NCBI GenBank assembly: GCA_902599995.1
Contig: CACKHN010000001.1
Span: 1-48,502 of the forward strand
DNA from: an uncultured Pelagibacteraceae bacterium
GTDB taxonomy: Bacteria; Pseudomonadota; Alphaproteobacteria; Pelagibacterales; Pelagibacteraceae
DNA length: 48,502 nt
Direction: 5' to 3'
In this document: piece after piece, positions 1 through 19,522 of the stretch
Position numbering within the stretch: position 1 is the first letter of the stretch
Layout of the letters: each line of letters begins with the position of its first letter
Translations under genes and position numbers: made by a program
Notes under the pieces: generated by a model
Databases searched by the model: none
Told to the model about the DNA's origin: nothing
What the model saw: the letters and a program-made list of their open reading frames with translations, nothing else

Positions 1-1167
1 ACTTCTCGATTTGCTGCCTTAGCAAATGGAACAGGTATACATTCTGATGACTACGATGATACTCAATTAGCTGTACAAAAAGATAGAGTTTATGGATTAT
101 TGACACACCCTACTGCCCCATGCCTACCAAGCGCATATGCAGAGGGAGAGTTAAAGAAAATTAGTGGAAAAGAGTTCTTAAATGCCTACTTAGTAGGTGT
201 TGACGTAGAATGTAAAGTTTCTGAAGCAATGTCTCCAAGACATTATCAGCATGGTTTTCATTCAACATCCACATGTGGAACTTTAGCCTCAGCTGCAGCT
301 GCAGCAAAAATCCGTGGCTATAATGTTTCTCAAATTCAACAATCCTTAGCAGTGGCTGCAACTTTGAGCGCAGGGTTAAGAGAAAATTTTGGTACAATGA
401 CTAAACCCTTACATGCTGGAAGAGCAGCTGAAAGTGGAGTTGTCGCTTGTGATCTTGTGGGCTTAGGTTGGACTGCTACTGATAAAATTTTAGAGTCTCC
501 GAGAGGGTTTTTTCAAGCTCATGGAGGGGGTTATAATTTAAAATCTATTAAAGGTCAGCTTGGAAGACCATGGACTTTTTCAAAACCTGGTGTTTCAATT
601 AAACCCCATCCCTGTGGTTCATTAACCCATCCCGGAATGACAAAAATGTTAGAATTAATTTTGAAGCACGATATAAAACCACATGATGTAATTAAAGTTG
701 ATGTTGGAACTAATCATAATATGCAAAATGCATTAATTCATCATAGACCAACTAATGAGTTTCAAGCTAAATTTAGTATGGAATATTCTATGGCAATTTT
801 GCTAGTTCAGAGAAGAGCATATATTCCAGAATATCAAGATAAAAGAATTAACAAACCGGATGTTCAAAACATGCTTAGAAAAATAAACTTTTATAAAAAT
901 AAAATAGCTGAAGCAGCTGGTTACGACAAAATGACTACAATTATTGATATTTATCTTAAAAATGGCAAAAAAATTTCAGGTAGAGGAGATTTTGGCAAAG
1001 GAAGTCCAATGATACCTATGACATACGATGAAGTAGCAGATAAGTTTATGGGTTGTTGTGAATTTGCAAAATGGCCAACAAAGAAGGCGAAGGCAATTAT
1101 TCAAGCTGTTAGTAAATTAGAAAAAATGAAAGATATTTCTAAATTGAGTAGGCTTTTATCCAAATAA
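1..1167 (+). CDS. MmgE/PrpD family protein, 5' end cut by window edge
   Basis: The reading frame is open from base 1, so the gene starts upstream of the window; 388 residues and the stop are visible. The Asp-rich motif DDYDDT near visible residues 16-21 and the KPLHAG motif (K135, H138) match the MmgE/PrpD superfamily. That superfamily includes 2-methylcitrate dehydratase, cis-aconitate decarboxylase and iminodisuccinate epimerase, all acting on small di- or tricarboxylates in the cytoplasm. It is the first of four family members in the window's left 18 kb and lies on the same strand as the TcuA-like gene that follows. The exact substrate cannot be told. An internal ATG at base 100 would omit the Asp motif and is not the real start. 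Confidence 0.9.
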   Translation, partial: TSRFAALANGTGIHSDDYDDTQLAVQKDRVYGLLTHPTAPCLPSAYAEGELKKISGKEFLNAYLVGVDVECKVSEAMSPRHYQHGFHSTSTCGTLASAAAAAKIRGYNVSQIQQSLAVAATLSAGLRENFGTMTKPLHAGRAAESGVVACDLVGLGWTATDKILESPRGFFQAHGGGYNLKSIKGQLGRPWTFSKPGVSIKPHPCGSLTHPGMTKMLELILKHDIKPHDVIKVDVGTNHNMQNALIHHRPTNEFQAKFSMEYSMAILLVQRRAYIPEYQDKRINKPDVQNMLRKINFYKNKIAEAAGYDKMTTIIDIYLKNGKKISGRGDFGKGSPMIPMTYDEVADKFMGCCEFAKWPTKKAKAIIQAVSKLEKMKDISKLSRLLSK

Positions 1168-1180
1168 AATCACATTTTTA

Positions 1181-1207
1181 TGTTAGCGATTAATTAAATC
1201 GCTAACA
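1181..1207 (+). terminator. 11-bp stem, 5-base loop hairpin after the MmgE/PrpD gene
   Basis: TGTTAGCGATT (1181-1191) pairs perfectly with AATCGCTAACA (1197-1207) across the loop AATTA. It sits 14 bases after the stop codon of the upstream gene. The bases after it are only moderately T-rich, so it could be a weak intrinsic terminator, an mRNA 3' end stabiliser, or an operator for the tcuA-like gene downstream. Confidence 0.55.
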
Positions 1208-1273
1208 CATTTCATATTATTAATTATATTTCAAATAAAGTAGGTTGTTTTATATTGTGAAATAAGATTTATC

Positions 1274-1286
1274 TTTTTTTTTTTTT
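1274..1286 (+). repeat. 13-base poly-T tract upstream of the tcuA-like gene
   Basis: A run of 13 T residues lies 21 bases before the GTG start at 1308. It is a long homopolymer in a non-coding leader. It could change length by slippage, or act as the T-tract of a weak terminator. Confidence 0.6.
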
Positions 1287-1307
1287 AAAAGAATATAAAT
1301 AAAAATT

Positions 1308-2777
1308 GTGAAAAATTATGATGTAATTGTTGTTGGAGCAGGTAACGCTGCATTGTCTGCTGCTCTCTCTGCAAAAGATAATGGTGCAGAAAAAGTTTTA
1401 GTATTGGAGAAAGCCTCCTCTAAAGAAAAAGGTGGAAACAGCAGATATACAAACGGTGCTTATAGGTTTGCTTACAATGACTTTTCAGATTTAAAAAAAG
1501 TAATACCAAATTTAAAAAATTCTAACAGTATAGATTATGGAAAATATAGTGTCGCTGATTTTTTAAGAGACATGAATAAAGTTACAGACGGAAAAACAGA
1601 TAAAAAATTATCTAAAATCCTAACATCAAAAAGTTTTGAAACAATTCATTGGTTAAGTAAAAAAGGTTTAAAATTTACACCCATTAAAGGAAGACAATCT
1701 TTCAAAGTCAATGGTGTGATGAGATATTGGGGAGGCTTGACTTTAGAGGTAAATGGTCAAGGTGAAAAACTAATAGACTCCATGCTTAAGATTATAAAAA
1801 AAAATAAAATTGAAATTCTTTATGATACAGCTGCAACTGATTTAATTTATGAAGATAATATTATTAAGGGCGTTGAAGTTATAAGTAAAAATAAACCAAA
1901 GACGATTACTGCAAAATCCGTAGTTTTAGCTTGTGGAGGCTTTGAGTCCAGTCCTGAAATGAGAACAAGATATCTTGGTCCAGGATGGGAAATGGCAAAA
2001 GTCAGAGGAACAAAACATAACACTGGTGATGGATTAAGTATGGCGTTAAAAATAGGTGCCTCACCCTATGGAAATTGGTCTGGTTGCCATGCAGTATTTC
2101 ACGATATGAATGGACCTGAGTTTAGTGATTTAAAGATAAGTAATAAATATCGAAAAATTAGTTATCCATGGGGAATTGTTTTAAATGCTAATGGAGAGAG
2201 ATTTGTTGACGAAGGAGAAGATTTTAGAAATTTTACTTATGCAAAATTTGGAAAAGAAGTCATAAAACAACCAAATCAAATTGGATGGCAAATTTTTGAT
2301 CATAAAGTGAGACATATGCTTTATCCAGAGTATGATGTTAAGTCTGCTACGATGGTTAGAGCTAACTCAATTAAAGAGTTACTTAAAAAAATATCAAGTA
2401 TAAATTCGCAGAAAGCTCTAAAAACTATAAATGATTTTAACAAAGCTGTTAAAGAAGAAGTTAAATATGATCCAACAATTAAAGATGGAAGATGTACAGA
2501 GGGTTTAGCACTTAACAAAAGTAATTGGGCAAATAAAATAGATAAAGCTCCTTTTTATGCTTATGGAGTTACATGTGGAATTACTTTCACTTTTGGTGGA
2601 TTAAGAGTAAATCAGAAATGCCAAGTGTTAAATAAAGTCATGAAGCCTATCAAAGGACTTTTTGCTGCTGGAGAAATGGTAGGTGGTATTTTTTATTTTA
2701 ACTATCCAGGTGGTAGTGGTTTAACTTCAGGTGCAGTGTTTGGTAAGATAGCAGGCAAGTACTCTGCTAAACTTTAA
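1308..2777 (+). CDS. tcuA: FAD-dependent tricarballylate dehydrogenase-like (TcuA family)
   Basis: A 489-residue flavoprotein of the fumarate reductase/succinate dehydrogenase flavoprotein superfamily. The N-terminus has a dinucleotide-binding motif of the form VVGAGNAAL (residues 8-16) and a GGNSRYTNGAYR stretch near residue 43 typical of TcuA proteins. The C-terminus has the FAD-contacting GLFAAGEMVGG and NYPGGSGL motifs. TcuA of Salmonella oxidises tricarballylate to cis-aconitate, an assignment that fits the nearby aconitase, PrpF and tricarboxylate transporter. The usual electron-transfer partner TcuB is not in the window. The start is GTG; no better start precedes the FAD motif. Its 3' end overlaps the convergent dehydrogenase by 11 bases. 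The substrate could equally be another dicarboxylic or 3-ketosteroid-like acid. Confidence 0.75.
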   Translation: MKNYDVIVVGAGNAALSAALSAKDNGAEKVLVLEKASSKEKGGNSRYTNGAYRFAYNDFSDLKKVIPNLKNSNSIDYGKYSVADFLRDMNKVTDGKTDKKLSKILTSKSFETIHWLSKKGLKFTPIKGRQSFKVNGVMRYWGGLTLEVNGQGEKLIDSMLKIIKKNKIEILYDTAATDLIYEDNIIKGVEVISKNKPKTITAKSVVLACGGFESSPEMRTRYLGPGWEMAKVRGTKHNTGDGLSMALKIGASPYGNWSGCHAVFHDMNGPEFSDLKISNKYRKISYPWGIVLNANGERFVDEGEDFRNFTYAKFGKEVIKQPNQIGWQIFDHKVRHMLYPEYDVKSATMVRANSIKELLKKISSINSQKALKTINDFNKAVKEEVKYDPTIKDGRCTEGLALNKSNWANKIDKAPFYAYGVTCGITFTFGGLRVNQKCQVLNKVMKPIKGLFAAGEMVGGIFYFNYPGGSGLTSGAVFGKIAGKYSAKL

Positions 2778-3828
2778 ATGGACTTCTTACATCATATTTT
2801 TTAGATAATTTCTCTAGTTCTTTAATAGTTTCTTTAGAGAGCAAAATTCCTTTTTTTGAGTTTACATTTTGATTATTAAATTCAGGCTCACCAGGATGTA
2901 GTATTTTTTTAAAGCCTTTTGCTTTTTTAAGTTTTTTTACCTCCTTAATTCCAAATTCTATTTTTTTTATAAAGTTCGTGTGTGATTGAAATAGATCAGT
3001 TCTAAGACAAATCATCAAATGACCTACATTTGAAGCTCCAGAAAAGTCATTAATTGCATTTTTAACTTTACCACTATGATTTGCACCTGTAAAAATTCCA
3101 GCTACTATATCCATCATCCATGATAATCCAGCACCTTTCATTCCTCCAAAAGGTAACATGATTCCTTTAAAAGCTTTTGCCCCATCATTCGTGGGTTTTC
3201 CAAATTTATCCAATGCATACCCAAAAGGTATTTTAATATTATTTTGAGCAGCAAATTTTAACTTTCCTCTCGCAACAGAAGAAGATGCCATATCAAGTAT
3301 AAAAGGTTTATTGATTTTTTTTGTAGGACAGCCAAATGCAAAAGGACTTGTGCCAAAGAAAGGTGCCATCGCTCCATGAGGTGGCAAGGCTTTTGATGCG
3401 TTAGTAAATACCCAAGCAATACATTTATTTTTTGCAGCAATTTCTAAATAATTTGCTGCCATTCCAAAATGGTTGCTTTCACTTATTCCTACCAAACCAA
3501 TCCCATTTTTTTTTGCTAGAGAGACGCATTTTTTTATTCCTTCATTGGCGGCTATATAACCCAGACCATTATCACCTGACAAATGAAAAATATTATTAGT
3601 TATTTTTTTAAATTTCAGTATTGGATTAATTTTAGCTGATTTTTTTTCAATCCTTTTTATATAAATTGGTAATCTAACAATCCCGTGTGACCAAACACCT
3701 CTTTCATCTGCTCTCACTATTAAATTTGCAACTGTTTTTGAATTTAAGTTATTTAAGCCAACTTTTTTTAGAACCTTAAATGCAAACTTGATTAAATCTG
3801 TTTTTTTATATCTTTTTTTAATATTCAT
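2767..3828 (-). CDS. Ldh2-family (malate/L-lactate/ureidoglycolate) dehydrogenase
   Basis: A 353-residue NAD(P)-dependent oxidoreductase of the Ldh2/MDH2/DlgD family, which oxidises 2-hydroxy acids with a fold distinct from classical lactate dehydrogenases. The diagnostic SHGIVRLPIY stretch (H48) and the conserved SNHFGMAANY motif (H120) are present, and the glycine-rich PFGGMKGAGLSWMMD segment follows. Family members include sulfolactate, malate, ureidoglycolate and 2,3-diketo-L-gulonate enzymes, so the name covers the family only. It is transcribed divergently from the aconitase gene across an 83-base region with a palindromic operator candidate, which suggests shared control. Its 3' end overlaps the tcuA-like gene by 11 bases. 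Confidence 0.85.
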   Translation of the reverse strand: MNIKKRYKKTDLIKFAFKVLKKVGLNNLNSKTVANLIVRADERGVWSHGIVRLPIYIKRIEKKSAKINPILKFKKITNNIFHLSGDNGLGYIAANEGIKKCVSLAKKNGIGLVGISESNHFGMAANYLEIAAKNKCIAWVFTNASKALPPHGAMAPFFGTSPFAFGCPTKKINKPFILDMASSSVARGKLKFAAQNNIKIPFGYALDKFGKPTNDGAKAFKGIMLPFGGMKGAGLSWMMDIVAGIFTGANHSGKVKNAINDFSGASNVGHLMICLRTDLFQSHTNFIKKIEFGIKEVKKLKKAKGFKKILHPGEPEFNNQNVNSKKGILLSKETIKELEKLSKKYDVRSPFKV

Positions 3829-3853
3829 ATTTTTAACTGTTATAACCTGATGT

Positions 3854-3895
3854 TTTAAAATATAGAAAATACTTTATATAATCTTTTAAAGTATT
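3854..3895 (+). promoter_or_regulatory. Aconitase promoter with a 9-bp inverted repeat around the -10 box
   Basis: A perfect -10 box TATAAT (3877-3882) stands 17 bases after a weak -35 TTTAAA (3854-3859), which puts the transcript start about 20 bases before the ATG at 3912. The arms AATACTTTA (3868-3876) and TAAAGTATT (3887-3895) are an exact inverted repeat whose 10-base spacer begins with the -10 box. A dimeric repressor bound there would block RNA polymerase. The site lies between divergent genes, so it may control both. Confidence 0.6.
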
Positions 3896-3911
3896 AAATT
3901 AAATAAAAACC

Positions 3912-6539
3912 ATGATTTTTAAAAGTTTCAAAAAAATTGCTATTGATAATAAAGAATATGATTTTGCAGATATCAGCAAAATTAAGGATATAGAAAAAAT
4001 ACCTTATACCTATAGAATTTTGTTAGAAAATATAATTAGACAGAATCTTTTGGGTCGTAATGATAATGCTGAAGCTCAAATAAAATCAATTTTAGAAAAA
4101 CGATTAGGTGAAGCAATTAATTTTGCTCCAAATAGAATTTTAAGTCATGACATTTTAGGTAAAGTTATGTTGGTAGATTTTATTGCCTATAGAGAAGCCC
4201 TTCAAAAAAAAGGAATTGATTCTAAAGATATTCAACCAGATGTACCTGTAGATTTGGTTATTGATCATTCTTTGCAGGTTGATTATTTTGGAAATGATAA
4301 AGCTGAAATTGAAAACTTAAAAAAAGAGTATGAAAGAAATTCTGAGAGATTTTCTTTTTTAAGATGGTGTTCTAAATTTTTGGATAAAGTTAATGTAATT
4401 CCACCAGGGGTTGGTATTTGTCATCAGGTAAATATTGAATATTTATCTAAAGTCGTATGGAGAGAAAAAAAGAAAGATCTAAATCTTATTCATCCAGATA
4501 CTTGCATAGGAACTGATAGTCATACTCCAATGGTAAATGCTATAGGTGTTTTAGGTTGGGGTGTTGGTGGAGTTGAGGCAGAAATTTCTATGCTTGGAAA
4601 AACAATACCTATGACTGTGCCAGAGATAGTTGGGGTAAATTTAAAGAACCAACTTAAGGAAGGAATAACTTCAACAGACTTAGTTTTATATATTACAAAA
4701 TTATTAAGAAAAAATAAGGTTGTTGGAAGCTTTATTGAATTTTGTGGAGAAGGAGTTGAAAGTCTTACTGTTGGGGATAGAGCAACTATTTCAAATATGG
4801 CACCAGAGTATGGGGCAACTGCAGTCCTATTTCCTGTTGACAATTCAACTTTAGAGTATTTGCGTATGACAGGAAGAACAGACGAAGAAATTCAAGTTGT
4901 TGAAGAATATTCAAAACATCAAAAACTATGGCGAAGATCTGATATTACTCCAGACTATAACAGAGTTTTAAACCTTGATTTATTCTCAATAGAACCTTGT
5001 GTGTCAGGACCCAAAAATCCTGAGGATAAAATTAATTTAAATAAGTTTTCAAATGAAATTAATTCTCACTCAAACATGCTTTACAGTCAAGATTTACGGG
5101 AGGATGAATTTGAAGTACCTAATCTTGATTACAAAGTAAAAGATGCAGACATAATGATTGCGGCAATAACAAGCTGTACAAACACTGCAAATCCAAAAAA
5201 TGTTATTGCAGCAGGTTTGATTGCGAAAAAATTAGTTAAACTAGGTTTTAAAAAAAATAATAAAGTAAAAACATCTTTTGCACCGGGTAGCAAAGTTACA
5301 GCAGAGATTTTAAGTAAATCTGGTTTGCAAAAATATTTAGATCAATTAGGTTTTAATGTAGTTGGTTTTGGATGTACAACTTGTAACGGCAGCTCAGGAC
5401 CTTTAGACGAAAACTTAGCAAATACTATAGAAAAAGAAAAAATTTTTTCAGTTGCAGTGCTTTCAGGAAATAGAAATTTCCAAGGGAGAATACATCCAAA
5501 TATAAGAGCTTCATACTTGGCATCCCCTGGATTAGTGGTAATGTTTTCTATAATAGGTAATGTCAAAATTAATCTTTTAAGTGACAGTTTAGGAAAAAGT
5601 TCTAATGATCAAAATATTTTTTTGAAGGATGTTTGGCCTTCAAATATAGAAGTGGATAAAATTGTAAATGAGTTTTACAAAGCAGAAACTTTTAGAGAAA
5701 AGTATGATCAGGTGTATCAGGGAGGAAGTTTATGGGAAAATTTAAATGTTTCAAATTCTCAAGATTATGACTGGCCTGATAGTACTTATATAAAAAAACC
5801 TCCATACTTAAAATATGCAGAAGATAATCAAACTAATGATATAGAACTAGCCCGACCACTAGTATTACTTGGTGACTCTGTCACTACAGACCATATTTCT
5901 CCCTCTAGTGTTATAACAAAAGGAACAGCAGCTTGGGATTACTTAACAAAACTTGGATTAGACTCTAAAGATTTTAATAATTATTTAACTCGAAGAGCCA
6001 ATCATGAAATTGTAGAAAGATCTACTTTTGCTAGTTTAAGACTAAGAAATTTAATGGTACCCAATCAGGAAGGAAGTCTTACAATTAAATATCCAGAAAA
6101 TAAAGTAACGAGAATTTATGAAGCTGCAGTTCAATATAAAAAAGAGAAAAAAGAAATTATAGTTATAGCAGGCGAAAATTATGGATGTGGATCGTCAAGA
6201 GATGTAGCCGCTAAAGGACCATTATTAATTGGTGTAAGAGCAATAGTTGCAAAAGGATTTGAAAGAATTCATAGATCAAATTTAATTGGAATGGGATTGC
6301 TCCCTTTAGAATTTGAAAATGGACAAGGTATCAATGAGCTAAATATTGAAAGTTCAGATCAGTTTAGCTTATTAGGGTTAAATGATATTACAAATGAAAA
6401 TAAAAAAGTGCTCATGAAAATACATAAACAAACAGGTGATATTATTGAAGTTACACTTAATGCTAGATTAGATGTTCCAGAAGAGTTAAATTTTTGGAAA
6501 AATGGTGGGATTTTGCCTACAGCTTATAAGGAGGCTTAG
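3912..6539 (+). CDS. acnA: Aconitase, AcnA/AcnD family
   Basis: An 875-residue Fe-S hydro-lyase close to the usual AcnA/AcnD length (about 865-890). The three cluster cysteines are visible: C422 in SCTNTANPKN, and C488 and C491 in GCTTCNGSSG. The N-terminal IPPGVGICHQVN and GVLGWGVGGVEAE stretches are AcnA-like, while DTCIGTDSHTP resembles AcnD (2-methylcitrate to 2-methyl-trans-aconitate). A C-terminal swivel domain with NYGCGSSRDVA is intact. It is followed after 5 bases by prpF, the arrangement seen for acnD-prpF. The enzyme could be the cell's TCA aconitase, a dedicated paralogue for the tricarboxylate made by this cluster, or AcnD. Its family is certain; its exact substrate is inferred. 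Confidence 0.9.
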   Translation: MIFKSFKKIAIDNKEYDFADISKIKDIEKIPYTYRILLENIIRQNLLGRNDNAEAQIKSILEKRLGEAINFAPNRILSHDILGKVMLVDFIAYREALQKKGIDSKDIQPDVPVDLVIDHSLQVDYFGNDKAEIENLKKEYERNSERFSFLRWCSKFLDKVNVIPPGVGICHQVNIEYLSKVVWREKKKDLNLIHPDTCIGTDSHTPMVNAIGVLGWGVGGVEAEISMLGKTIPMTVPEIVGVNLKNQLKEGITSTDLVLYITKLLRKNKVVGSFIEFCGEGVESLTVGDRATISNMAPEYGATAVLFPVDNSTLEYLRMTGRTDEEIQVVEEYSKHQKLWRRSDITPDYNRVLNLDLFSIEPCVSGPKNPEDKINLNKFSNEINSHSNMLYSQDLREDEFEVPNLDYKVKDADIMIAAITSCTNTANPKNVIAAGLIAKKLVKLGFKKNNKVKTSFAPGSKVTAEILSKSGLQKYLDQLGFNVVGFGCTTCNGSSGPLDENLANTIEKEKIFSVAVLSGNRNFQGRIHPNIRASYLASPGLVVMFSIIGNVKINLLSDSLGKSSNDQNIFLKDVWPSNIEVDKIVNEFYKAETFREKYDQVYQGGSLWENLNVSNSQDYDWPDSTYIKKPPYLKYAEDNQTNDIELARPLVLLGDSVTTDHISPSSVITKGTAAWDYLTKLGLDSKDFNNYLTRRANHEIVERSTFASLRLRNLMVPNQEGSLTIKYPENKVTRIYEAAVQYKKEKKEIIVIAGENYGCGSSRDVAAKGPLLIGVRAIVAKGFERIHRSNLIGMGLLPLEFENGQGINELNIESSDQFSLLGLNDITNENKKVLMKIHKQTGDIIEVTLNARLDVPEELNFWKNGGILPTAYKEA

Positions 6540-6544
6540 GATTA

Positions 6545-7678: not shown

Positions 7679-8523
7679 GAAATTCTTATATCTCCACTTA
7701 TTTGAGTTCTATGCATAACCCGTCTAGTATTTGGGTCAAATGAGTCTCTTTTGTGTAAGACAAAAAGATTTTTCCACATCAACACTTCGTTATTTTGCCA
7801 TCGATGGGTAAAGGTATATTTTTCTTGCGTAGCATGTAACCATAATTCATTTAGTAGACTCTCACTTTCATCAATAGTCATTCCAACTATATAAGCATGT
7901 GGTCTTCTGCCAAGAAAAAGTGATTTTTTTTGAGTAGTAGGATCTTTAAAAATAATTGGATGTTTTGCTCCTGGCGTTAGAGATGGATCAGCATTTTCTT
8001 TGTACCCTTTTCTTAATTGTCCAGCACTATTATGTGAGGCATCATGAATTAAAATTTTACCATCAATTTTTTTTATTAAGCGCTCAGGCATATCCTCATA
8101 AGCAGCAATCATATTAGAAAAGTGTGTATCACCTTGATTTTTTGGTACTTCTAACGAGTACAAAATTGCACCTTTTGGCGGAATTTCATTATAGGTCATA
8201 TCAGCATGCCATGTGGCCTCGCCATCACCAAGAATACCAATTGGTTTTCCTTTTTCTTTAACATTTGATATTACGTTTATTTCTGGGTATTCAGGTGAAA
8301 AATTTATCCCATATGGATTAGGTGCAGGTAAGTCTAAATTTCCAAAGTATTTACTAAATTTTAATAATTGTGGATCATTTAATTTTTGATTTTTAAATGT
8401 CAAAACTAAATTTTCATCCCAAGCTTTTTGGATAAAATTAATCTGATCTACTTTTAAATCTTTTGATAAATCAATATTTACAATTTCAGCTGATAAAGCT
8501 TTTTTACTTTTAATTAAATTCAT
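7675..8523 (-). CDS. TauD/TfdA-family Fe(II)/2-oxoglutarate dioxygenase
   Basis: A 282-residue protein with the iron-binding facial triad of this family: H106 and D108 in ATWHADMTY, and the distal H271 in RRVMHRTQ, followed by arginines that can bind 2-oxoglutarate. TauD-type enzymes hydroxylate the carbon next to a sulfonate, releasing sulfite; others attack aryloxyacids, carnitine precursors or clavaminate-type substrates. It is the last gene of a minus-strand run prpD, mmgE, tauE, tauD-like. The preceding gene encodes a TauE/SafE exporter, often linked to sulfite or sulfoacetate efflux, so desulfonation of an organosulfonate is one possibility. No substrate is proven. Confidence 0.85.
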   Translation of the reverse strand: MNLIKSKKALSAEIVNIDLSKDLKVDQINFIQKAWDENLVLTFKNQKLNDPQLLKFSKYFGNLDLPAPNPYGINFSPEYPEINVISNVKEKGKPIGILGDGEATWHADMTYNEIPPKGAILYSLEVPKNQGDTHFSNMIAAYEDMPERLIKKIDGKILIHDASHNSAGQLRKGYKENADPSLTPGAKHPIIFKDPTTQKKSLFLGRRPHAYIVGMTIDESESLLNELWLHATQEKYTFTHRWQNNEVLMWKNLFVLHKRDSFDPNTRRVMHRTQISGDIRIS

Positions 8524-8557
8524 AATTACTCATAATATATAAATTAGTTTTCATTAA

Positions 8558-10662: not shown

Positions 10663-12173
10663 TAGAAAATACCTTTTATATTATTTTTTTTGAAGTCTAA
10701 ATGTTTTTCTTTGCAGACTATATTTAAAGTTTTTATTTCATTTGATTTTAATTTTTCCAGATTACCAATTAAATTTATAAATCTATTTTCTTCTTGTTTA
10801 TGAATTATATTTTTAGTCAAAATTTTCATTTTATTAATATATTCATCTCTTCCAAAAGGAGTTTTTCCATTTGGATGAGCATTGGCAAATTCTAGTTGGT
10901 CAATTATTTTTAGTCCATTCATTAGCTCTATTTCTACTTTTGCTCCTTGTGCTTTTTTTAAAGGATCAGGTTCATCATAATACTTTTTATTCCAACTTTT
11001 ACTTTCAAAGGTTTTTATTTTTCTCCATAATTTAATCGTATCAAGTTTATTTTTTCTTTTTTTAGAATAACTTTTTTCGTGGTGCCAAGCTCCATCTTCC
11101 AAAGCAACTGCAAAAATATACATTGCTGAATGGTCAAGAGTTTCTCTTGATGCTTTAGGACTATACTTTTCATTATCATTGCTCCCACTACCCATCACAA
11201 TATGGGTATATTTTTTTGAATAAATATTGATTTTTTTTATCTGCTTTATATTTTTAATTTTTTTTCTCATCTTAAATGCTAAATCAATTAAAGCATTTCC
11301 ATGATAACCTGCTGAATGTTCTTTTGTAAAAGTTCCTAAAATTCCATTTCTAGATTCATTTTTTTCAGGTAGATTAATTTTTATATTTTTGTTTTCTTTT
11401 TCTAATAAAATTGAAATGATACCATAATCACCCTCCCAAACTGGACTTGGTGATTTATCACCTCTGATTGCTCTATCAATTGCATCTATTGCATTTTTAC
11501 CAACTAACCCAGGAGCATAAGCTTTCCAGCTAGATAAGTTTCCTTTTCTTCCTTGTCTTGTAAAAATAGACGTGTGTGCACTCCACTGAATCGCTTGATA
11601 AATTGTTTCTATATCTAACTTTAAAAGTCTACCAATTCCACTAGTAATTGCTGGACCTAAATGTCCTACATGATCAATCTTATTTGGATTAAGAGCAATT
11701 GACATTGATAACCTTAATTGTGTTTCATAACTTGTTGCAATAGCTTTTATTAAATCTTTACCATTACAATTTCTTTGCTGCGCTACTGCTAAAATAGTTG
11801 GTATGCAGTCTCCAGGATGGCAAGTTTCTTTAGCCATTATATTGTCATGAAAATCTAATTCTCTCACTGCTACTGCATTTGCCCAAGCTGCCCACTGACA
11901 ATCAAATTTTTTTTTTGAATTTAATCCAATTAAAGTCGCACCACTTCTATTTTCAAACTGCATCGCTTGTGCTCTAGCAATTTTAACTGCCTCCCTATTT
12001 AAAGCAGCAACTGCAACACCTGCATTGTCAATAATCCTATTGCCAACCATCTCAATTACATCTTTGTTTAAATTCCATTCTTCAGAAGCCATCTTAGCAA
12101 TTAGCCAAGCTAGGTGATTTTTTTTAACTGTTTTTTTTCCCGGTTTTTGAAGTTTAATTGGATGTGTTTTCAT
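10662..12173 (-). CDS. prpD: 2-methylcitrate dehydratase (PrpD)
   Basis: A 503-residue protein, slightly longer than E. coli PrpD. It has the PrpD-specific RELDFHD motif (104-110), CHPGD (118-122), SSWKAYAPG in mid-protein, and the C-terminal SRETLDHSAMYIFAVAL and AHPNGKTPFGR segments seen in PrpD rather than in general MmgE proteins. PrpD dehydrates 2-methylcitrate to 2-methyl-cis-aconitate in propionate catabolism and can act on related tricarboxylates. No prpB or prpC lies in the window; prpE is 34 kb away at 45886-47784. It is the first gene of a minus-strand operon that diverges from the tctCBA transporter. The family is very likely; the substrate is probable. Confidence 0.82.
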   Translation of the reverse strand: MKTHPIKLQKPGKKTVKKNHLAWLIAKMASEEWNLNKDVIEMVGNRIIDNAGVAVAALNREAVKIARAQAMQFENRSGATLIGLNSKKKFDCQWAAWANAVAVRELDFHDNIMAKETCHPGDCIPTILAVAQQRNCNGKDLIKAIATSYETQLRLSMSIALNPNKIDHVGHLGPAITSGIGRLLKLDIETIYQAIQWSAHTSIFTRQGRKGNLSSWKAYAPGLVGKNAIDAIDRAIRGDKSPSPVWEGDYGIISILLEKENKNIKINLPEKNESRNGILGTFTKEHSAGYHGNALIDLAFKMRKKIKNIKQIKKINIYSKKYTHIVMGSGSNDNEKYSPKASRETLDHSAMYIFAVALEDGAWHHEKSYSKKRKNKLDTIKLWRKIKTFESKSWNKKYYDEPDPLKKAQGAKVEIELMNGLKIIDQLEFANAHPNGKTPFGRDEYINKMKILTKNIIHKQEENRFINLIGNLEKLKSNEIKTLNIVCKEKHLDFKKNNIKGIF

Positions 12174-12198
12174 AAGTTAACTAAATAAATGAATTATG

Positions 12199-12213
12199 TT
12201 TCATAATATGAAA
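12199..12213. promoter_or_regulatory. Palindrome between prpD and tctC (operator candidate)
   Basis: TTTCAT (12199-12204), spacer AAT, ATGAAA (12208-12213) is a perfect inverted repeat in the 120-base region between divergent prpD and tctC. It lies 26 bases before the prpD start and about 80 bases before tctC, where a regulator of both arms could bind. No convincing sigma-70 pair was found beside it. Confidence 0.4.
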
Positions 12214-12281
12214 TGACATTTTACATATTGAACTTAACTCTATTAATGTGTTAACGTTTGTCAATTTTAATAAAACTAACT

Positions 12282-12289
12282 GAGAGGGA
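12282..12289 (+). promoter_or_regulatory. Strong ribosome binding site of tctC
   Basis: GAGAGGGA ends four bases before the ATG at 12294. This decides the start: the longer frame from a TTG at 12258 would run through this site and add 12 residues ahead of a good signal peptide. The same GAGAGGGA motif precedes proteorhodopsin, which suggests high expression. Confidence 0.75.
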
Positions 12290-12293
12290 AATT

Positions 12294-13283
12294 ATGTTCA
12301 AACTAAATTTGAAAAAGTTTTTTGCTTTTTTTTCTTTATTCGCTCTTACTTACACATCGATAGCTAGTACATCAGTAGTTGCTGAAACTTTTGCTACTAA
12401 AGAGTGTGATCCAATACAAGTTGTGATTCATGCTTCTTATGGTGGAGGAACAGATACAACTGCCAGAATGATGTCTATCAGATCTAGAAGAACTCTAAAA
12501 GCTGATATGCAAATCGTAGGTAAAAGAGGTGGATCAGGAGCTAAAGCTCAAAACTACACTTTAACAAGACCAAAAGATGGTTGTACAATTATGGCTTTAA
12601 CAGAGTCACACTTATACACTATGGCTAGAGGCAAATCTAACATGAAGATCGATGATCTTGTTGGTGTTGCTAGAGCTATGGAAGAGCCAACTTTTATCGT
12701 AGTTAATGCTCAAAATAAAGAGTTAAGTACTATTAAAAAGTTCATTAAAAGATCAAAAGAAAAACCGATCATAACTGCAATAGCATCTATTGGTGGTACT
12801 GAGCACATTGGAATGTATAACTATTCGACAGTTGCTGATGTTCCATTTAAAGCTGTCTCATTTGGATCTGGAGCTCAAAGTTTGCAAGCTTTAGCATCTG
12901 GTAAAGTTGAAGCATCTTTATTAAACCCATCTGAAGCTGCAGCTTTGATTGAAGACAAAAAAATTAAAGCAATTCTTTTGTTACATGACAAAAAAATGGC
13001 AGACTATCCAAAAGTGCCAACCTCATACGAAATGGGTCACGAAGTTAAAGTTGTGACTACAAGAGGATATGCTGTGCTAAAAGGAACGCCTCAAGACAGA
13101 ATTGATGCGCTTTCTAAAGGTATGGTTAAAGCTATGAAGCATGACACTTTCGCAAATTATCTTAAAGGCGCATCTCTAGACCCTGCAACTAGCCCAGCTG
13201 GTACAGAGGTTTGGGACAAGCAACTTAAAGAAAATTATGCAAAAGCTGCTGAGGCATTAAAAGGATTAGGTTTAACTAATTAA
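12294..13283 (+). CDS. tctC: Tripartite tricarboxylate transporter, periplasmic binding protein (TctC)
   Basis: A 329-residue secreted solute-binding protein. The N-terminus is a basic stretch followed by a hydrophobic signal peptide ending near VVAETFA. The family's first-domain motif is seen in VVIHASYGGGTDTTARMM, followed by GKRGGSGAKAQNY. TctC-type proteins bind citrate, tricarballylate, terephthalate or other carboxylates and deliver them to TctAB. Its ATG is preceded by a strong ribosome binding site. The tctB start overlaps its stop (TAATG). It heads the plus-strand arm tctC-tctB-tctA-SDR-mmgE-tauE and diverges from prpD, so the ligand is probably the substrate of this cluster. Confidence 0.92.
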   Translation: MFKLNLKKFFAFFSLFALTYTSIASTSVVAETFATKECDPIQVVIHASYGGGTDTTARMMSIRSRRTLKADMQIVGKRGGSGAKAQNYTLTRPKDGCTIMALTESHLYTMARGKSNMKIDDLVGVARAMEEPTFIVVNAQNKELSTIKKFIKRSKEKPIITAIASIGGTEHIGMYNYSTVADVPFKAVSFGSGAQSLQALASGKVEASLLNPSEAAALIEDKKIKAILLLHDKKMADYPKVPTSYEMGHEVKVVTTRGYAVLKGTPQDRIDALSKGMVKAMKHDTFANYLKGASLDPATSPAGTEVWDKQLKENYAKAAEALKGLGLTN

Positions 13284-13813
13284 TGTCAGACGAAAAAAAA
13301 ACTTTTGACTTTGCGCCCAAAACATTGGGCGCAGGGTTTATTCATAAAAAAGACTTAGTACTTGCAATCATATTAGTCGCTTTCGGGGCATTTATGTACT
13401 ATGAAGCTGGAAAATTTCCAGAAGCCCCTGCTATTTTAGGAGATACTTTAAATGCAGATGTATTTCCAAAAATGCTTATTACAATATTATTTATTCTAGT
13501 TGCGATTATACCTTTTGAGTTCAAAATTACTCCAGCAAAAATAGCAAAAATAGATAAAGATAGAGGTGATAGAACATTACCAATAACTTGGTTCACAATA
13601 GTTCTGTTACTTGTAATAGTTTCTTTTGCTGAATTTTTAGGTGCAGTTGTAACAATGTTTATTACTTGTTTAGCCTTACCTCTTCTTTGGGGAGAAAGAA
13701 ATTATATAGCAGTAGCTATATATTCAGTTGTGTTTCCTGGTTTTGTTTATTTATTATTCAATAAATTGCTAGGATTATATTTTAACCCTGGAATACTCGA
13801 ATTACTTAAATAA
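13283..13813 (+). CDS. tctB: Tripartite tricarboxylate transporter, small membrane subunit (TctB)
   Basis: A 176-residue membrane protein with about four hydrophobic helices (roughly residues 27-43, 58-74, 101-135 and 141-168) and the LGxYF-like end (LGLYFNPGILELLK) found in TctB. It is the poorly conserved small subunit that works with TctA in the inner membrane. It starts in the tctC stop codon and is followed by tctA after 5 bases. Position and topology, more than sequence, identify it. Confidence 0.88.
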   Translation: MSDEKKTFDFAPKTLGAGFIHKKDLVLAIILVAFGAFMYYEAGKFPEAPAILGDTLNADVFPKMLITILFILVAIIPFEFKITPAKIAKIDKDRGDRTLPITWFTIVLLLVIVSFAEFLGAVVTMFITCLALPLLWGERNYIAVAIYSVVFPGFVYLLFNKLLGLYFNPGILELLK

Positions 13814-13818
13814 AAATT

Positions 13819-15309
13819 ATGGAAGACGTAATAAGAGGATTTGTATTATTGATGGAGGTTCAAAACCTCTTATTGATTTTTGGTGGAGTTTTGGTTGGTG
13901 TATTAGTTGGCGCTTTACCTGGATTAAGTTCACCTATGGCTATTGCTTTGTTAATGCCATTTACGATAAGTCTTGATCCTGTTGCATCTATATCAATGAT
14001 GGCTGCATTATATTGTGCAGGAACCTTCGGTGGATCAATTACTGCAATACTTATCAATGCACCAGGAGCGCCTCCTGCGGTTGCTACTGCTTTAGATGGT
14101 TATCAAATGGCAAAAAATGGTGAGCCTGGAAGAGCTTTAGGTCTAGCGGCAGTTTCCAGCGTATTAGGTGGAATATTTGCAATTGTAATATTTTTATTTG
14201 CTACACCTTTACTTGCTGACATAGCTTTAAAATTTGGACCAGTAGAATATTTTGGTTTATCAGTTTTTGCGTTATCTATGTTAGCTGCTATGAGTGGAAA
14301 ATCATCCATAAGAAATCTTGTAGCAGGAGCTTTAGGGGTATTCGTATCAACAATTGGAGTTCACCTAGCTACAGGGGTTGAAAGATATGATTTTGGAGTT
14401 CAGGAATTAACCGAAGGTATTAAATTTGTACCAGTCCTAATTGGACTTTTTGCAATGTCAGAATTATTAACACAATCTAAAACTTTAAATGCTGCAGTTG
14501 AAAGAATGTCTGCAAGAGCTTTAAGACTACCCACATTTGCTGAATTAAAAAGTTTAAAAGGTACCATACTAAGATCTTCAGGTCTTGGAACATTTATTGG
14601 AATATTACCAGCAGAGGGTTCAACAGTTGCGGCTATGATGGGATACAATGAAGCTAAAAGATTTTCAAAAACACCTGAAAAATTTGGTACAGGATGTGCC
14701 GAGGGAATAGTTGGACCAGAGGCTGCAAATAATGCGGCTGCAGGAGGAGCTATGGTTCCAACACTTGCACTAGGAATACCTGGAAGTGGAACTACAGCTT
14801 TAATTTTAGCAGCATTAGTTATGCATGGTTTTAGGCCAGGTCCTTATCTAATAACAGAAACTCCACATCTGGTTTATGCAATTTTTGGAGCTATGCTATT
14901 TGCTAACTTTGCATTTTTGGGAATCGGATTAGCAGGTGCTAGATTTTTCTCTTATGTAACTTTTATTCCTAAAAGATTTCTATGGCCTTCAGTATTTATA
15001 TTTTCTTTAATTGGTTCATACGCTTATAGTTCAGCTATTTTCGATGTATGGGTTATGTTGATATCTGGAATAATTGGTTATTTTGCTTTAAGAAATGGAT
15101 TTTCACCTGCTCCTTTTGTTATGGGTTTAATTTTAGGAAAAATGGTTGAAGAAACTTTCACTCAATCAATGGTTATTTATGAGAGTAATTTCATGAACTT
15201 CTTTGACAGTGGAGTATTTATTTTATTTATGGTATTGACTGTAATTAGTTTATCAACACCATTTTGGGGTCAAATACGCTCTAAATTAAAACCTAAACCA
15301 GTTGAATAA
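13819..15309 (+). CDS. tctA: Tripartite tricarboxylate transporter, large permease (TctA)
   Basis: A 496-residue inner membrane permease with about 11-12 hydrophobic segments. The hallmark TctA signatures are present: GALPGLSSPMAIALLMPFT near the N-terminus, YCAGTFGGSITAILINAPG next, and GGAMVPTLALGIPGSGTTA in the second half. It carries the substrate using the ion gradient once TctC delivers it. It follows tctB closely, and its last 8 bases overlap the TTG start of the SDR gene. The transporter appears complete. Confidence 0.95.
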   Translation: MEDVIRGFVLLMEVQNLLLIFGGVLVGVLVGALPGLSSPMAIALLMPFTISLDPVASISMMAALYCAGTFGGSITAILINAPGAPPAVATALDGYQMAKNGEPGRALGLAAVSSVLGGIFAIVIFLFATPLLADIALKFGPVEYFGLSVFALSMLAAMSGKSSIRNLVAGALGVFVSTIGVHLATGVERYDFGVQELTEGIKFVPVLIGLFAMSELLTQSKTLNAAVERMSARALRLPTFAELKSLKGTILRSSGLGTFIGILPAEGSTVAAMMGYNEAKRFSKTPEKFGTGCAEGIVGPEAANNAAAGGAMVPTLALGIPGSGTTALILAALVMHGFRPGPYLITETPHLVYAIFGAMLFANFAFLGIGLAGARFFSYVTFIPKRFLWPSVFIFSLIGSYAYSSAIFDVWVMLISGIIGYFALRNGFSPAPFVMGLILGKMVEETFTQSMVIYESNFMNFFDSGVFILFMVLTVISLSTPFWGQIRSKLKPKPVE

Positions 15310-16066
15310 AAAATTCACCAAAAATAAAGTTGTTGTTATAACTGGTGGTGCCAAAAAAATAGGTAGATCGACCGCATTAAAACTTGCAGAGCAAGGATTT
15401 AATATTTTAATTCATACAGGTGGTAAGAGCATTAATGATGCAAAGACAACTGTAAAATTAGTCAAAGAATATAAAGTAAATAGTAATTTTATTAGCGGTG
15501 ATCTTGACAATATTAAAACAATTAAAAAAATTAAAATTGCAGCAGAGAAATTGGGTGTTCCATCTATTTTAATCAATAATGCTGGCTTAAGAATTTATGA
15601 TAATTTTGAAAAGATAAAATATAAAGACTGGAAAAAAGTGATGTCAGTAAATGTTGATGCTTCCTTTCTTTGTGCTCAAGCTCTCATTGGACATATGACA
15701 AAACAAAAATGGGGAAGAATTATAAATGTAGGAGGTTTATCTGCACATATTGGAGCCAAAGAAAGAGCTCATGTTGTAACTTCTAAAGCTGCTCTTGTTG
15801 GGTTAACAAAAGCTATCAGTATGGAGTTTTTAGAAAAAGGAATTACTAGTAATTGTGTAGTTCCTGGTTTCATTGAGGATTTTGACTCAAAAGAAAAAAA
15901 GCTTAAAGGTCACTGGTTGCGCCATCCACAAACCCCTAATCTAGTATTGAAAAGATTTGGTACTCCTGACGAAGTTGCTGAGGTAATTGTTAATCTTTGT
16001 AAAAAAGAAGCTAGTTATATTAATGGACAGACACTTCACGTAAATGGTGGTACTTATACCCCATGA
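15302..16066 (+). CDS. SDR-fold protein lacking the catalytic Ser and Tyr
   Basis: A 254-residue short-chain dehydrogenase/reductase with a nucleotide-binding TGGAKKIGRS loop (14-23), NNAG (92-95) and N117 of the catalytic tetrad. In the active site, the YxxxK lysine is K162, but the expected Tyr is V158 (AHVVTSK), and the expected Ser 13 residues earlier is G145 (INVGGLS). The codon is GTT, two changes from TAT, so a simple sequencing error is unlikely. The protein may be a non-oxidoreductase SDR, use another acid/base such as H157, or be a binding protein. The start is TTG, overlapping tctA by 8 bases; its stop overlaps the next gene by four bases (ATGA). Confidence 0.85.
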   Translation: MNKKFTKNKVVVITGGAKKIGRSTALKLAEQGFNILIHTGGKSINDAKTTVKLVKEYKVNSNFISGDLDNIKTIKKIKIAAEKLGVPSILINNAGLRIYDNFEKIKYKDWKKVMSVNVDASFLCAQALIGHMTKQKWGRIINVGGLSAHIGAKERAHVVTSKAALVGLTKAISMEFLEKGITSNCVVPGFIEDFDSKEKKLKGHWLRHPQTPNLVLKRFGTPDEVAEVIVNLCKKEASYINGQTLHVNGGTYTP

Positions 16067-17412
16067 CAATTGCAGAAGAATTCTCGAGTTGGAGCAAAAG
16101 CTTAGACGTAAAAGATATTCCAGAAAAAACCCAATTTACATTAAAATTCTTATTAAAGGATATCTGTGGAATTATTTTATCAGCAAGGAATGAGGATTAT
16201 GTAAAAAGTTTAGTTGAAACCTATAAAGGATCAGGAAACTTAATTTCTTTAGGTCACAGTGAGAGATTTGACTTATTTTCATCGGCCATAATAGCTGGTA
16301 CTGCAGCACATGGTGAGGATTTTGATGATACTTTTGAGGGAAATCCAATGCATGTAGGGGCCACAATGATTCCAGCGATGCTTTCAGCAGCTCAGAAATT
16401 TAATCTTGATGGTGATCAAATTTTAAAGGGACTAGCTGTTGGATCAGAGTTAATTTGTAGATTGGCTTTGGTAGCACCGACCGCAATGCATAAACAATCT
16501 TTTCATCCAACTGCTGTTTGTGGAACTTTTGGTGTTGCTGCAGGTTTATCATCCGTATTAGATCTATCAGAAAAACAGATGATTTCAGCTTTAGGAGTAG
16601 CAGGTAGCTTTACCTCTGGTATCATTGAATATCTTGCTGAAGGATCATGGACTAAAAGAGTTCATCCAGGTTGGTCAGCAAACTCCGGAATGAATGCTAC
16701 ACTGATTGCAAAATCTGGTTTTTATGGACCACGGACTGTATTTGAGGGTAAGCATGGTTTCTTTGAGGCCTTTGCATTAAAAGAGATTGAGAGAGATTAT
16801 TCTCATTTAACCAATGAATTAGGTAAAAGATGGGAAAATCAAAATTTAGCTTTTAAACCATTTGCCTGTGGAACCATGGCACAACCTTTTGTCGATTGTG
16901 CTATTAAAATTAGGAAAAAAATCAAAAATTTAGATGAAATTTCTTCTATTACTGCAAAAGTTGGTGAGGGTACTGTCCACAGATTATGGGAACCTTTGAA
17001 AGAAAAAAGGCAACCATCAACACCTTACTCAGCCAAATTTTCAGTCCCATATTGTGTAGCTGTAGGATTTATTAGAGGAGATGCTGGTTTAAACGAATTT
17101 AATGAAAAAAGTATAAATGACAAAGAAATTTTAAACTTAGCAAGTAAGGTAAATTACGAAATAGATCCAAATAATGAATATCCAAAAAATTATACTGGAA
17201 CACTGATTTGTAAAACTTCTAATAATGAATTTACCGAACATCAACCTTGCTTTAGAGGCGGTGTTAAAGAGCCATTAACCAAAGATGATATTGATAAAAA
17301 ATATAATGCAAATTTAAATTATTCCAAAATTTCAGAAGAAAATAAAAAAAATTTAAATGATTTTATTGAAACTCTATTTAATAGACCCGATTTTTCTAAA
17401 ATAACTTTTTAA
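16063..17412 (+). CDS. MmgE/PrpD family protein (fourth)
   Basis: A 449-residue family member with the canonical acidic motif GEDFDDT (D86, D88, D89), HVGA around H97 and the K-R-V-H-P-G motif (K198, H201). This form is closest to the cis-aconitate decarboxylase / iminodisuccinate epimerase type of active site, but the residues alone do not name the reaction. Its ATG overlaps the SDR stop (ATGA), so it is probably made with the SDR and TctCBA. It differs clearly from the three other copies in the window. Cytoplasmic, acting on the acid that TctCBA imports, is the simplest inference. Confidence 0.88.
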   Translation: MTIAEEFSSWSKSLDVKDIPEKTQFTLKFLLKDICGIILSARNEDYVKSLVETYKGSGNLISLGHSERFDLFSSAIIAGTAAHGEDFDDTFEGNPMHVGATMIPAMLSAAQKFNLDGDQILKGLAVGSELICRLALVAPTAMHKQSFHPTAVCGTFGVAAGLSSVLDLSEKQMISALGVAGSFTSGIIEYLAEGSWTKRVHPGWSANSGMNATLIAKSGFYGPRTVFEGKHGFFEAFALKEIERDYSHLTNELGKRWENQNLAFKPFACGTMAQPFVDCAIKIRKKIKNLDEISSITAKVGEGTVHRLWEPLKEKRQPSTPYSAKFSVPYCVAVGFIRGDAGLNEFNEKSINDKEILNLASKVNYEIDPNNEYPKNYTGTLICKTSNNEFTEHQPCFRGGVKEPLTKDDIDKKYNANLNYSKISEENKKNLNDFIETLFNRPDFSKITF

Positions 17413-17418
17413 TCTTAC

Positions 17419-18192
17419 ATGGAAACTGATTTTGATATAGGTGCGTTATTTGCTAGTCTTGGAGTAATTGAGCTTACAATATTAATATTAACTGCTTTTT
17501 TTGCATCTGTCGTTTCAGGAATATCTGGATATGGGGGAGGTATGACCCTTGGTTTATTAGTATCACCTTTTATACCTGTAAAATTATTAGTACCTTTAAT
17601 GTCAGTGTTTGTTTTGTTTTCAAATGTATCGAGAATGTATTATTACAGAAAAAATATATTTTGGAAAAAAGGTATTTACTTTGCGATAATTTCTACCCCA
17701 TTCTTGATTGTAGGTACAAATTTCTACGCATCAGTGTCTGAAAAAACTTTATATTTCTGTTTGGGGTTTGGGTTAGCTTTCATTGTAATTCTAAGAAGAG
17801 TATTTAAGAAAATTAATCTTACTATTGGTTGGGTAGGATTAGGAGTAATGGCTGTATTTTATGGAACTTTAAGTGGTGTTATCCTTGGGCCAGGTTCTGT
17901 TTTACTAACAGCCCTAGCTGCAAATGGACTAGTAGGACCTCAAATTATAGGTACCGACTCCTTTATAACACTTATAAATGTAATCATACGCCTCATATCG
18001 TATTGGAATTTGGGGTTACTGAACCTTGATGCGCTATACGTAGGTTCAATGATAGGTATAGTTGCAATATTTGGATCATATACTGCAAAAAAAATTGCCG
18101 ATAAGTTAGGAGTTAAAATGCACACAATTATTATTGAGGTGTGCGTAGTTATAGGTGGAAGTGCAATGATTTATAAAGCCTTAACTTTTTAA
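17419..18192 (+). CDS. TauE/SafE family anion exporter (right copy)
   Basis: A 257-residue membrane protein with about seven or eight helices. Its repeats are marked by SGISGYGGGMTLGLLVSPF near residue 35 and SGVILGPGSVLLTALAANG near residue 152. TauE/SafE proteins export sulfite or organic anions. It ends the plus-strand arm that starts at tctC and overlaps the convergent rhodanese gene by four bases. Both arms of the cluster thus end with an MmgE/PrpD plus TauE pair, although the two exporters are different in sequence. Confidence 0.85.
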   Translation: METDFDIGALFASLGVIELTILILTAFFASVVSGISGYGGGMTLGLLVSPFIPVKLLVPLMSVFVLFSNVSRMYYYRKNIFWKKGIYFAIISTPFLIVGTNFYASVSEKTLYFCLGFGLAFIVILRRVFKKINLTIGWVGLGVMAVFYGTLSGVILGPGSVLLTALAANGLVGPQIIGTDSFITLINVIIRLISYWNLGLLNLDALYVGSMIGIVAIFGSYTAKKIADKLGVKMHTIIIEVCVVIGGSAMIYKALTF

Positions 18193-19511: not shown

Positions 19512-19522
19512 TTAAAAAAAAT

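Follow-up and report, generated by a model that had tools for sequence, protein, structure and literature searches.

In Shewanella, 2-methylcitrate is dehydrated by AcnD, PrpF converts the product into its isomer 2-methyl-cis-aconitate, and an aconitase then hydrates this; the AcnA and AcnB of Salmonella perform only this last step (both from the accessible sections of PMC5690661). Here we describe a 15-gene island, characterised by open reading frame (ORF) and family profile searches, which occupies positions 1-18192 of a stretch of DNA from an uncultured Pelagibacteraceae bacterium and carries a divergent second aconitase, AcnA2, adjoining a PrpF. The stretch, hereafter the window, comprises positions 1..48,502 at the start of a contig of 143,340 bp (G000:C1), in an assembly (G000) of 947 kb in 23 contigs that is 79% complete. 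The closest named relatives of the window in a relatives search were Pelagibacteraceae. The arrangement is like that of Shewanella oneidensis (PMC5690661, same sections) in that an aconitase-family protein lies next to PrpF and that prpB and prpC occur without prpD; AcnA2 also has some AcnD-type residues, and the catalytic Lys and Cys of PrpF are kept. However, AcnA2 is just 43-44% identical to AcnD, falls below the AcnD model and forms its own clade, and the pair is found not in a prp operon but in a carboxylate island at a distance from prpBC.

The TcuABC system for tricarballylate utilisation is also similar, in that a TcuA-type flavoprotein lies near aconitase-family and PrpF genes. In contrast to that system, TcuB (TIGR02484) scored above its cut-off in none of 10 genomes, the window's own being incomplete (three weak partial matches, 35 bits), nor in any of 14 control genomes. 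We read the island as two parts, with a probability of roughly 0.7. Part A, AcnA2-PrpF, would replace PrpD in the methylcitrate cycle in the manner of AcnD and PrpF, and Part B would be a separate, transporter-fed module; the reactions are ones that we infer from genomes.

AcnA2-PrpF and the absence of prpD

The ordinary Pelagibacter locus is arranged HAD-prpD-prpB-prpC. In the window's own genome, where PrpC was found at 95% identity (13 of the 14 genomes asked had PrpC), the locus is HAD-prpB-prpC, with no prpD. The same holds for every AcnA2 genome read: 11 of 11 (G000, G121, G122, G124, G126, G127, G130, G131, G132, G134 and G137) retain prpB and prpC but have no prpD, and three of them have a small gene between HAD and prpB. 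Comparison loci contained prpD in 10 of 10 cases. A tblastn search for remnants of PrpD at the prp locus of 10 of the 11 AcnA2 genomes gave a single, chance-level match (E 8.7). The survey was then widened to 38 chosen genomes, with an orthologue of PrpD defined by 74% identity or more. None of the 19 AcnA2 genomes (AcnA2 being partial in G048 and G135) had a PrpD orthologue, and both of the island genomes without intact AcnA2 (G030 and G136) had one, as did 13 of the 17 other genomes, these 13 being the head of the listing and not a random draw. The remaining four (G004, G063, G073 and G074) had neither a PrpD orthologue nor any MmgE/PrpD family match. AcnA2 and prpD are mutually exclusive in the genomes read. 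On a tree of four neighbouring proteins the two traits each change twice, and their patterns are identical.

Three genomes provide natural tests of which part of the island goes with the missing prpD. G137 is a single contig of 1,211,322 bp, listed as 100% complete, and was examined in 62 stretches. It retains AcnA1-AcnA2-PrpF (AcnA2 65%, PrpF 67% identity) and prpBC, beside which are a D-2-hydroxyacid dehydrogenase (70%) and a thioesterase (81%), as in the larger island of HIMB114. At 1e-20, tblastn detected no TcuA, Ldh2, TctABC, TauE or MmgE in this genome; TauD and the short-chain dehydrogenase (SDR) matched elsewhere no better than at family level (29-34%), and a single match of 37% was obtained for the island lyase. 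No convincing MmgE/PrpD gene was detected in G137 by relaxed tblastn (best E 0.048, a 139-residue piece) or with a profile of 138 MmgE/PrpD sequences (best E 0.006, an unconvincing ORF of about 100 residues); the profile recovered the five expected proteins in control loci, themselves among the sequences from which it was built. G030 has MmgE1-3 and PrpF, only about 45 C-terminal residues of AcnA2 beside PrpF, and has kept prpD. The G136 island contains TcuA, Ldh2, MmgE1-4 and TctCBA, but is without AcnA2-PrpF. Its PrpD (L213:8958-10463) adjoins the ordinary AcnA (AcnA1), with no prpB or prpC within the stretch read, which suggests regain or relocation. AcnA2-PrpF and the TcuA/MmgE/transporter genes are separable. 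These patterns indicate that the missing prpD is accounted for by AcnA2-PrpF and not by MmgE3 or the transporter part.

With this in mind, we propose that in Part A AcnA2 would dehydrate 2-methylcitrate and PrpF would isomerise the product to 2-methyl-cis-aconitate, which the ordinary aconitase (AcnA1) would hydrate before cleavage by chromosomal PrpB. The pair would in this way stand in for the absent PrpD, the role that AcnD-PrpF has in Shewanella. Part B (TctCBA, MmgE1-4, the TcuA-type flavoprotein, Ldh2, SDR, TauD and TauE) would take up a substituted succinate or tricarboxylate from outside and degrade it, MmgE1 possibly serving as an epimerase or isomerase.

Divergence of AcnA2 and competing explanations

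AcnA2 shares 41-47% identity with the AcnA of SAR11 (AcnA1), E. coli, Rhizobium, Shinella and Rhodococcus, compared with 55-62% amongst those AcnA proteins themselves in the rows shown, close pairs apart. In an aconitase-family search of 73 genomes the window's AcnA2 scored 468.8 bits, and the others among the matches listed scored at least 534. Among 289 sampled genomes of the class, matches above 60% identity came only from the window's own genome and G137, the others among the matches listed being at most 48%. An AcnA2-type protein was found in 15 of 16 cluster genomes (one cut by a contig end), the one without it being G136. The protein keeps the cluster cysteines, GNRNF and SSRD, and has AcnD-type letters, not shared with the AcnA shown, at DHSL, TDSHTP, CTTCN, R[AS]TF and NA/DA (one AcnA2 row reads RSGF at the R[AS]TF position). 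AcnA2 rows form one separate clade in the aconitase tree. PrpF adjoins AcnA2 in the window and its relatives, scores above the Pfam PrpF cut-off and keeps the residues equivalent to K73 and C107, as do all 10 PrpF-family proteins aligned.

Other identities for AcnA2 were considered. That it is the housekeeping aconitase was rejected, as 11 of 16 cluster genomes have three aconitase-family members, with LeuC, an ordinary AcnA (a contig-end fragment in G131) and AcnA2 side by side; only LeuC and AcnA2 were found in the window's own genome, which is incomplete. A recent SAR11 duplicate of AcnA is disfavoured by the low identity and by an approximately unbiased test that rejected the grouping of SAR11 AcnA1 with AcnA2 (p 0.00015), albeit on a quick tree with long branches, a caution to be counted against us. 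Nor is AcnA2 placed as AcnD: the two stand apart under midpoint rooting once alpha_L250 (a wrong ORF) and Caballeronia_M1242 are left out, and in a tree that still included alpha_L250 they grouped together (95/86), with a warning of long branches.

Several further points speak against the proposed substitution. AcnA2 falls below the AcnD equivalog TIGR02333 (827.1 vs 1419.85 bits) and above the AcnA equivalog TIGR01341 (1037 vs 945), hence we say that it would work like AcnD and not that it is AcnD; PrpF is likewise below its own equivalog (Table 1). Two changes on the tree amount to few independent events, and the tree assumed the AcnA2 state of prpD-bearing G054, G062 and G070, seven of 10 having been tested and G070 standing closest to the window group. 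Tests for AcnA2 were made in five of the 17 other genomes (G004, G012, G073, G074 and G138), which covers G012 and G138 among the 13 with PrpD. Most of the genomes are incomplete assemblies, that of G030 consists of 100 contigs, and the prpBC of G136 was not read. Lastly, an ordinary AcnA occurs with PrpF and tripartite tricarboxylate transporter (TTT) genes on plasmids of Shinella and Rhodococcus, making the use of aconitate by such pairs possible.

These plasmids bear on the preliminary description of the locus, in which tricarballylate enters via TctCBA, TcuA converts it to aconitate, PrpF interconverts the trans and cis forms and aconitase yields isocitrate. The Shinella plasmid has tcuB-tcuA-acnA-TauE-PrpF with AbrB, Ldh, D-2-hydroxyacid dehydrogenase, IsoDH, tautomerase and TTT genes, that of Rhodococcus a lyase, acnA, citrate symporter, AbrB, PrpF and TctBA, and that of Hydrogenophaga TctC-tcuA-leuCD-TctC-PrpF (names as annotated in the records). 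Such sets are the best support for the tricarballylate route, and the window's TcuA passes NF006130; this much of the claim stands. On the other side, no TcuB scored above its cut-off, as described above, no aconitase-PrpF lies beside four of the five plasmid relatives of the window TcuA that were viewed, and the Shinella and Rhodococcus aconitases are ordinary AcnA, which AcnA2 is not. A single linear route is further disfavoured by G137 and G136, in which AcnA2-PrpF and the TcuA part come separated in both directions. In addition, the presence of AcnA2 tracks the absence of prpD, which points to the methylcitrate cycle. One route from tricarballylate through aconitate to isocitrate is not the best reading of the island, and we consider it unlikely.

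It is similarly improbable that the loss of prpD had nothing to do with AcnA2, the ordinary aconitase performing the dehydration or the cycle being broken. Streamlined genomes lose genes readily, and there are just two changes on the tree to explain. Against this, prpB and prpC were kept in 11 of 11 genomes, prpD is carried by the two further island genomes that lack intact AcnA2, and Salmonella AcnA and AcnB do not perform the dehydration step (PMC5690661, accessible sections). A takeover of the methylcitrate-cycle role of PrpD by MmgE3, with AcnA2-PrpF doing something else, is very unlikely. MmgE3 is the window member nearest to PrpD (Table 1) and was seen in 16 of the 19 AcnA2 genomes, all without prpD, yet G137 has prpBC and no convincing MmgE/PrpD gene, and G030 and G136 have MmgE3 whilst still carrying prpD.

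Under the favoured reading, of AcnA2-PrpF as the substitute for PrpD, the history of the island can also be considered. Mean identities between the window and HIMB114 were 81.1% for island proteins (n 15) vs 70.3% for prp-locus neighbours (n 9), and between the window and G127 82.9% (n 14) vs 67.3% (n 6). Moreover, the window lineage is nested among prpD-carrying genomes on the tree of four neighbouring proteins. The higher island identities and this nesting suggest that the island probably moved between SAR11 lineages and that prpD was lost afterwards. Weighing against such a transfer, there was no excess of island identity to G134 (72.2, n 14, vs 69.0, n 8, p 0.33), and the neighbour sample is small (6-9 proteins). 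A bolder proposal, which we hold tentatively and at less than even odds, is that AcnA2 founds a third class of the Fe-S aconitase family acting on 2-methylcitrate, confined to SAR11 as sampled and borne on a transferable island, whose arrival makes prpD redundant so that recipients delete prpD and keep prpBC; Part B may then feed in propionate or a propionyl unit via the isocitrate-lyase-family enzyme.

SAR11 bacteria are the dominant heterotrophs of the surface ocean, and their way of disposing of propionate matters for their growth and for which dissolved organic matter they use. If our reading is right, a rare and apparently mobile catabolic island has, on at least two occasions, swapped the dehydratase of a core pathway, and a gene seemingly of the tricarballylate route serves propionate metabolism; if the bolder proposal is true, an accessory island rewires the core propionate pathway. 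On our main reading the second SAR11 'AcnA' would not be a spare tricarboxylic acid cycle enzyme, which would correct a likely misannotation. The papers listed in searches of open-licence full text included none describing the gene cluster. The accessible text of PMC10030771 does not contain tricarboxylate, tctA, PrpD, methylcitrate, propionate or aconitase; taurine occurs there four times and citrate once, as a carbon source tried on other IIIa isolates, the island status of which was unchecked. None of six terms looked for was found in the accessible text of PMC12636525.

The MmgE/PrpD proteins and the transporter-fed part

Enzymes of the MmgE/PrpD family are thought to act on a succinate backbone via an enolate (PMC12290011), and IDS epimerase has been proposed to use a Tyr as second base (PMC7347537), each as given in the available part of the source. 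MmgE1 is like these isomerases (IDS epimerase and methylsuccinate isomerase) in its active-site residues, His/Asp/His/Tyr/His/Lys/Lys in 16 of 16 sequences (rows below 70% identity having been dropped beforehand), and the closest PDB sequence to a complete MmgE1 orthologue, in L043, is IDS epimerase. The direct comparison was confined to the PDB relatives. As all compared positions are kept, including the second-base Tyr, MmgE1 is predicted to be an epimerase or isomerase. MmgE2 departs at two or more active-site positions: it has no His at the His152 position (Phe in one alignment, Ala in another) and 16 of 16 sequences carry Glu in place of Lys202, followed directly by a Lys. For MmgE4, 76 of 77 homologues have His where Tyr148 would be. 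MmgE3 is 52% identical to the SAR11 PrpD of G012 (52-56% in ORF BLAST) and falls below the PrpD equivalogs, NF042438 (Table 1), NF006943 (83.8 vs 575) and TIGR02330 (70.7 vs 458); one alignment shifts both His columns of MmgE3 and PrpD by one residue, and another aligns the first of them. MmgE_PrpD_N and MmgE_PrpD_C domains exceed their Pfam cut-offs in all four proteins, and no further members were found in the window's own genome, itself 79% complete. Each of the four proteins MmgE1-4 is a clearly distinct, conserved and as yet uncharacterised member of a family with few known reactions.

PDB sequence searches settled no substrate for the island proteins. Ligands known for TTT systems extend from citrate to sulfolactate and terephthalate (PMC5812351, in the part available). 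Part B resembles a module of its own, fed by the transporter, for a substituted succinate or tricarboxylate. Similar cassettes exist on plasmids. Seven plasmid regions around MmgE4 relatives were viewed, of which four had TctCBA, SDR and further MmgE genes, two were without TTT and one was unannotated. TctCBA is next to the MmgE4 relative in Paracoccus versutus, P. yeei and Neorhizobium, and close by in Pacificitalea. Unlike in the window, no aconitase or PrpF is annotated in these four regions, and the partner genes in cassettes of this type outside SAR11 differ (MR_MLE, CaiB, enoyl-CoA hydratase, tartrate dehydrogenase). The Pacificitalea manganoxidans plasmid (L196) has five MmgE/PrpD genes and two TctA permeases in 25 kb, with tartrate dehydrogenase and PdxA-like genes. 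SAR116 loci carry TauD-TctCBA-MmgE4, L054 also with an MR_MLE enzyme, and the same set in a Litoricola locus (L099) is accompanied by LeuCD-like proteins, MR_MLE, a PrpB-like lyase, CaiB and enoyl-CoA hydratase. The SAR116 loci L083, L084, L086, L087 and L089 have other genes ahead of TauD-TctCBA-MmgE4; in L083 these encode two glyoxalase/extradiol-dioxygenase-family proteins and an FAD monooxygenase. In L117-L120 (G011, G010, G027 and G039) another TctCBA operon, next to or near prpCBD, ends in an MmgE1 orthologue (82-83%), from which it appears that MmgE1 can have a transporter of its own.

In HIMB114 a PF03601 membrane protein, of a family presumably linked to sulfate or sulfite export, lies between TauE1 and MmgE2 (L203:11585-12595; the same as L042:2244-3254), and G130 has a protein of similar size at this position (L205:14427-15455). 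That Part B degrades a sulfonated carboxylate, with TauD or an MmgE enzyme freeing sulfite and TauE exporting it, would fit this protein, the presence of TauD and two TauE, an Ldh2 whose nearest model is L-sulfolactate dehydrogenase (NF040650; best PDB match 2x06), weak TauE2 matches (25-28%) near the MmgE4-type loci L088, L093, L095 and L096, and the uptake of sulfolactate by the TTT SlcHFG (PMC5812351, in the part available). It is nevertheless the least credible of the alternatives, as Ldh2 is well under that model's cut-off (244.4 vs 500), TauD and TauE are broad families, and TauE had no match in SAR116 loci and one edge match (29%, L114) in gammaproteobacterial loci. PF04295, which we take to be the SuyB domain, was absent from eight of 10 genomes including the window's own and lay away from the island in the other two; a sulfolactate (slc/suy) pathway was rejected, with no such domain near the island.

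Gene content, recurrence and borders of the island

The genes of the island are listed in Table 1. The claim that four MmgE/PrpD members, a TcuA-type flavoprotein, Ldh2, aconitase-PrpF and a full TctCBA lie within 18 kb was confirmed by ORFs and families, the TTT transporter being complete in its three subunits; a TauD/TfdA dioxygenase, an SDR and two TauE proteins, absent from the earlier list, are also present. G+C content is 32.2% within 1-18192 vs 30.3% in the remainder.

Table 1. Genes of the island in the window, with the evidence for each assignment.
Gene product	Position	Strand	Evidence
MmgE1, MmgE/PrpD family, isomerase/epimerase-type active site	1..1167	+	Pfam N and C domains; 5' end cut by contig
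TcuA-type FAD dehydrogenase	1308..2777	+	NF006130 556.9 bits vs cut-off 369; TIGR02485 244.2, below 372.55
Ldh2-family 2-hydroxyacid dehydrogenase	2767..3828	-	PF02615 341.5 bits
AcnA2, divergent second aconitase, AcnA-type, proposed AcnD-like 2-methylcitrate dehydratase	3912..6539	+	Identity, clade, residues, absence of prpD
PrpF, proposed methylaconitate isomerase paired with AcnA2	6545..7678	+	PF04303 355.7 bits; TIGR02334 329.2, below 440.55
TauD/TfdA-family 2-oxoglutarate dioxygenase	7675..8523	-	PF02668 179.4 bits
TauE1, TSUP-family (TauE/SafE) membrane protein	8558..9319	-	PF01925 60 bits
MmgE2, MmgE/PrpD member, active-site positions altered	9316..10662	-	Pfam N and C domains
MmgE3, PrpD paralogue	10662..12173	-	NF042438 609.2 vs cut-off 950
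TctC solute receptor	12258..13283	+	PF03401 65.2 bits
TctB small permease subunit	13283..13813	+	PF07331 52.7 bits
TctA large permease subunit	13819..15309	+	PF01970 492.4 bits
SDR dehydrogenase	15302..16066	+	PF13561 144.9 bits
MmgE4, MmgE/PrpD member after TctCBA(-SDR)	16063..17412	+	Pfam N and C domains
TauE2, TSUP-family (TauE/SafE) membrane protein	17419..18192	+	PF01925 77.4 bits

Related loci were collected by an MmgE4 search (best 80 of 357 relatives, with 10-kb flanks, several being cut by contig ends or the flank). Most of the island gene set recurs, partly rearranged and with losses and inversions, in 19 SAR11 loci (18 Pelagibacteraceae and one HIMB114), so the grouping of the genes is more than chance. 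TauE1 is missing in L038 and L051. In a second arrangement (L043, L045, L048 and L049; cut in L044 and L052) MmgE1-TcuA-Ldh2-AcnA2-PrpF is inverted on the other side and there is no TauD; L098 has this arrangement without AcnA2-PrpF. MmgE4 (E 1e-60) occurs in nine of 397 genomes of the order, the window's own included, and in four of 13 genera; any MmgE/PrpD gene was found in 57 of 121 close genomes, mostly one, with four in G000 and G030. The preliminary description's view of a carboxylate-catabolism island with a TTT transporter, broad for SAR11, is borne out by this conservation. The left part of the HIMB114 island is larger, with AcnA1-AcnA2-PrpF in tandem, a D-2-hydroxyacid dehydrogenase, a thioesterase, an isocitrate-dehydrogenase-family enzyme, a second TctA-like permease (30% to TctA) and a 4-oxalomesaconate-tautomerase-like relative of PrpF (434.3 vs 440 bits).

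Because the window begins at a contig end, the N-terminus of MmgE1 is missing and the island runs on beyond it. In G121 nine proteins (MmgE3, MmgE2, TauE1, TauD, PrpF, AcnA2, Ldh2, TcuA and MmgE1) are 100% identical to those of the window (rounded), and past MmgE1 are an IclR regulator, an isocitrate-lyase/PEP-mutase-family lyase (TIGR02317 172 vs 354.4 bits), an AbrB-family membrane protein and an alpha/beta hydrolase. Two left-hand genes of G121 (L210:16588-18199) resemble PxpB and PxpC by eye only, and a PxpA/YcsF gene (window 19523-20296) borders the island on the right, as if a 5-oxoprolinase locus had been split by the island. A Rhodanese-like protein of 416 residues (window 18189-19439) also adjoins the island, and has a 59% relative near the other island end in G127.

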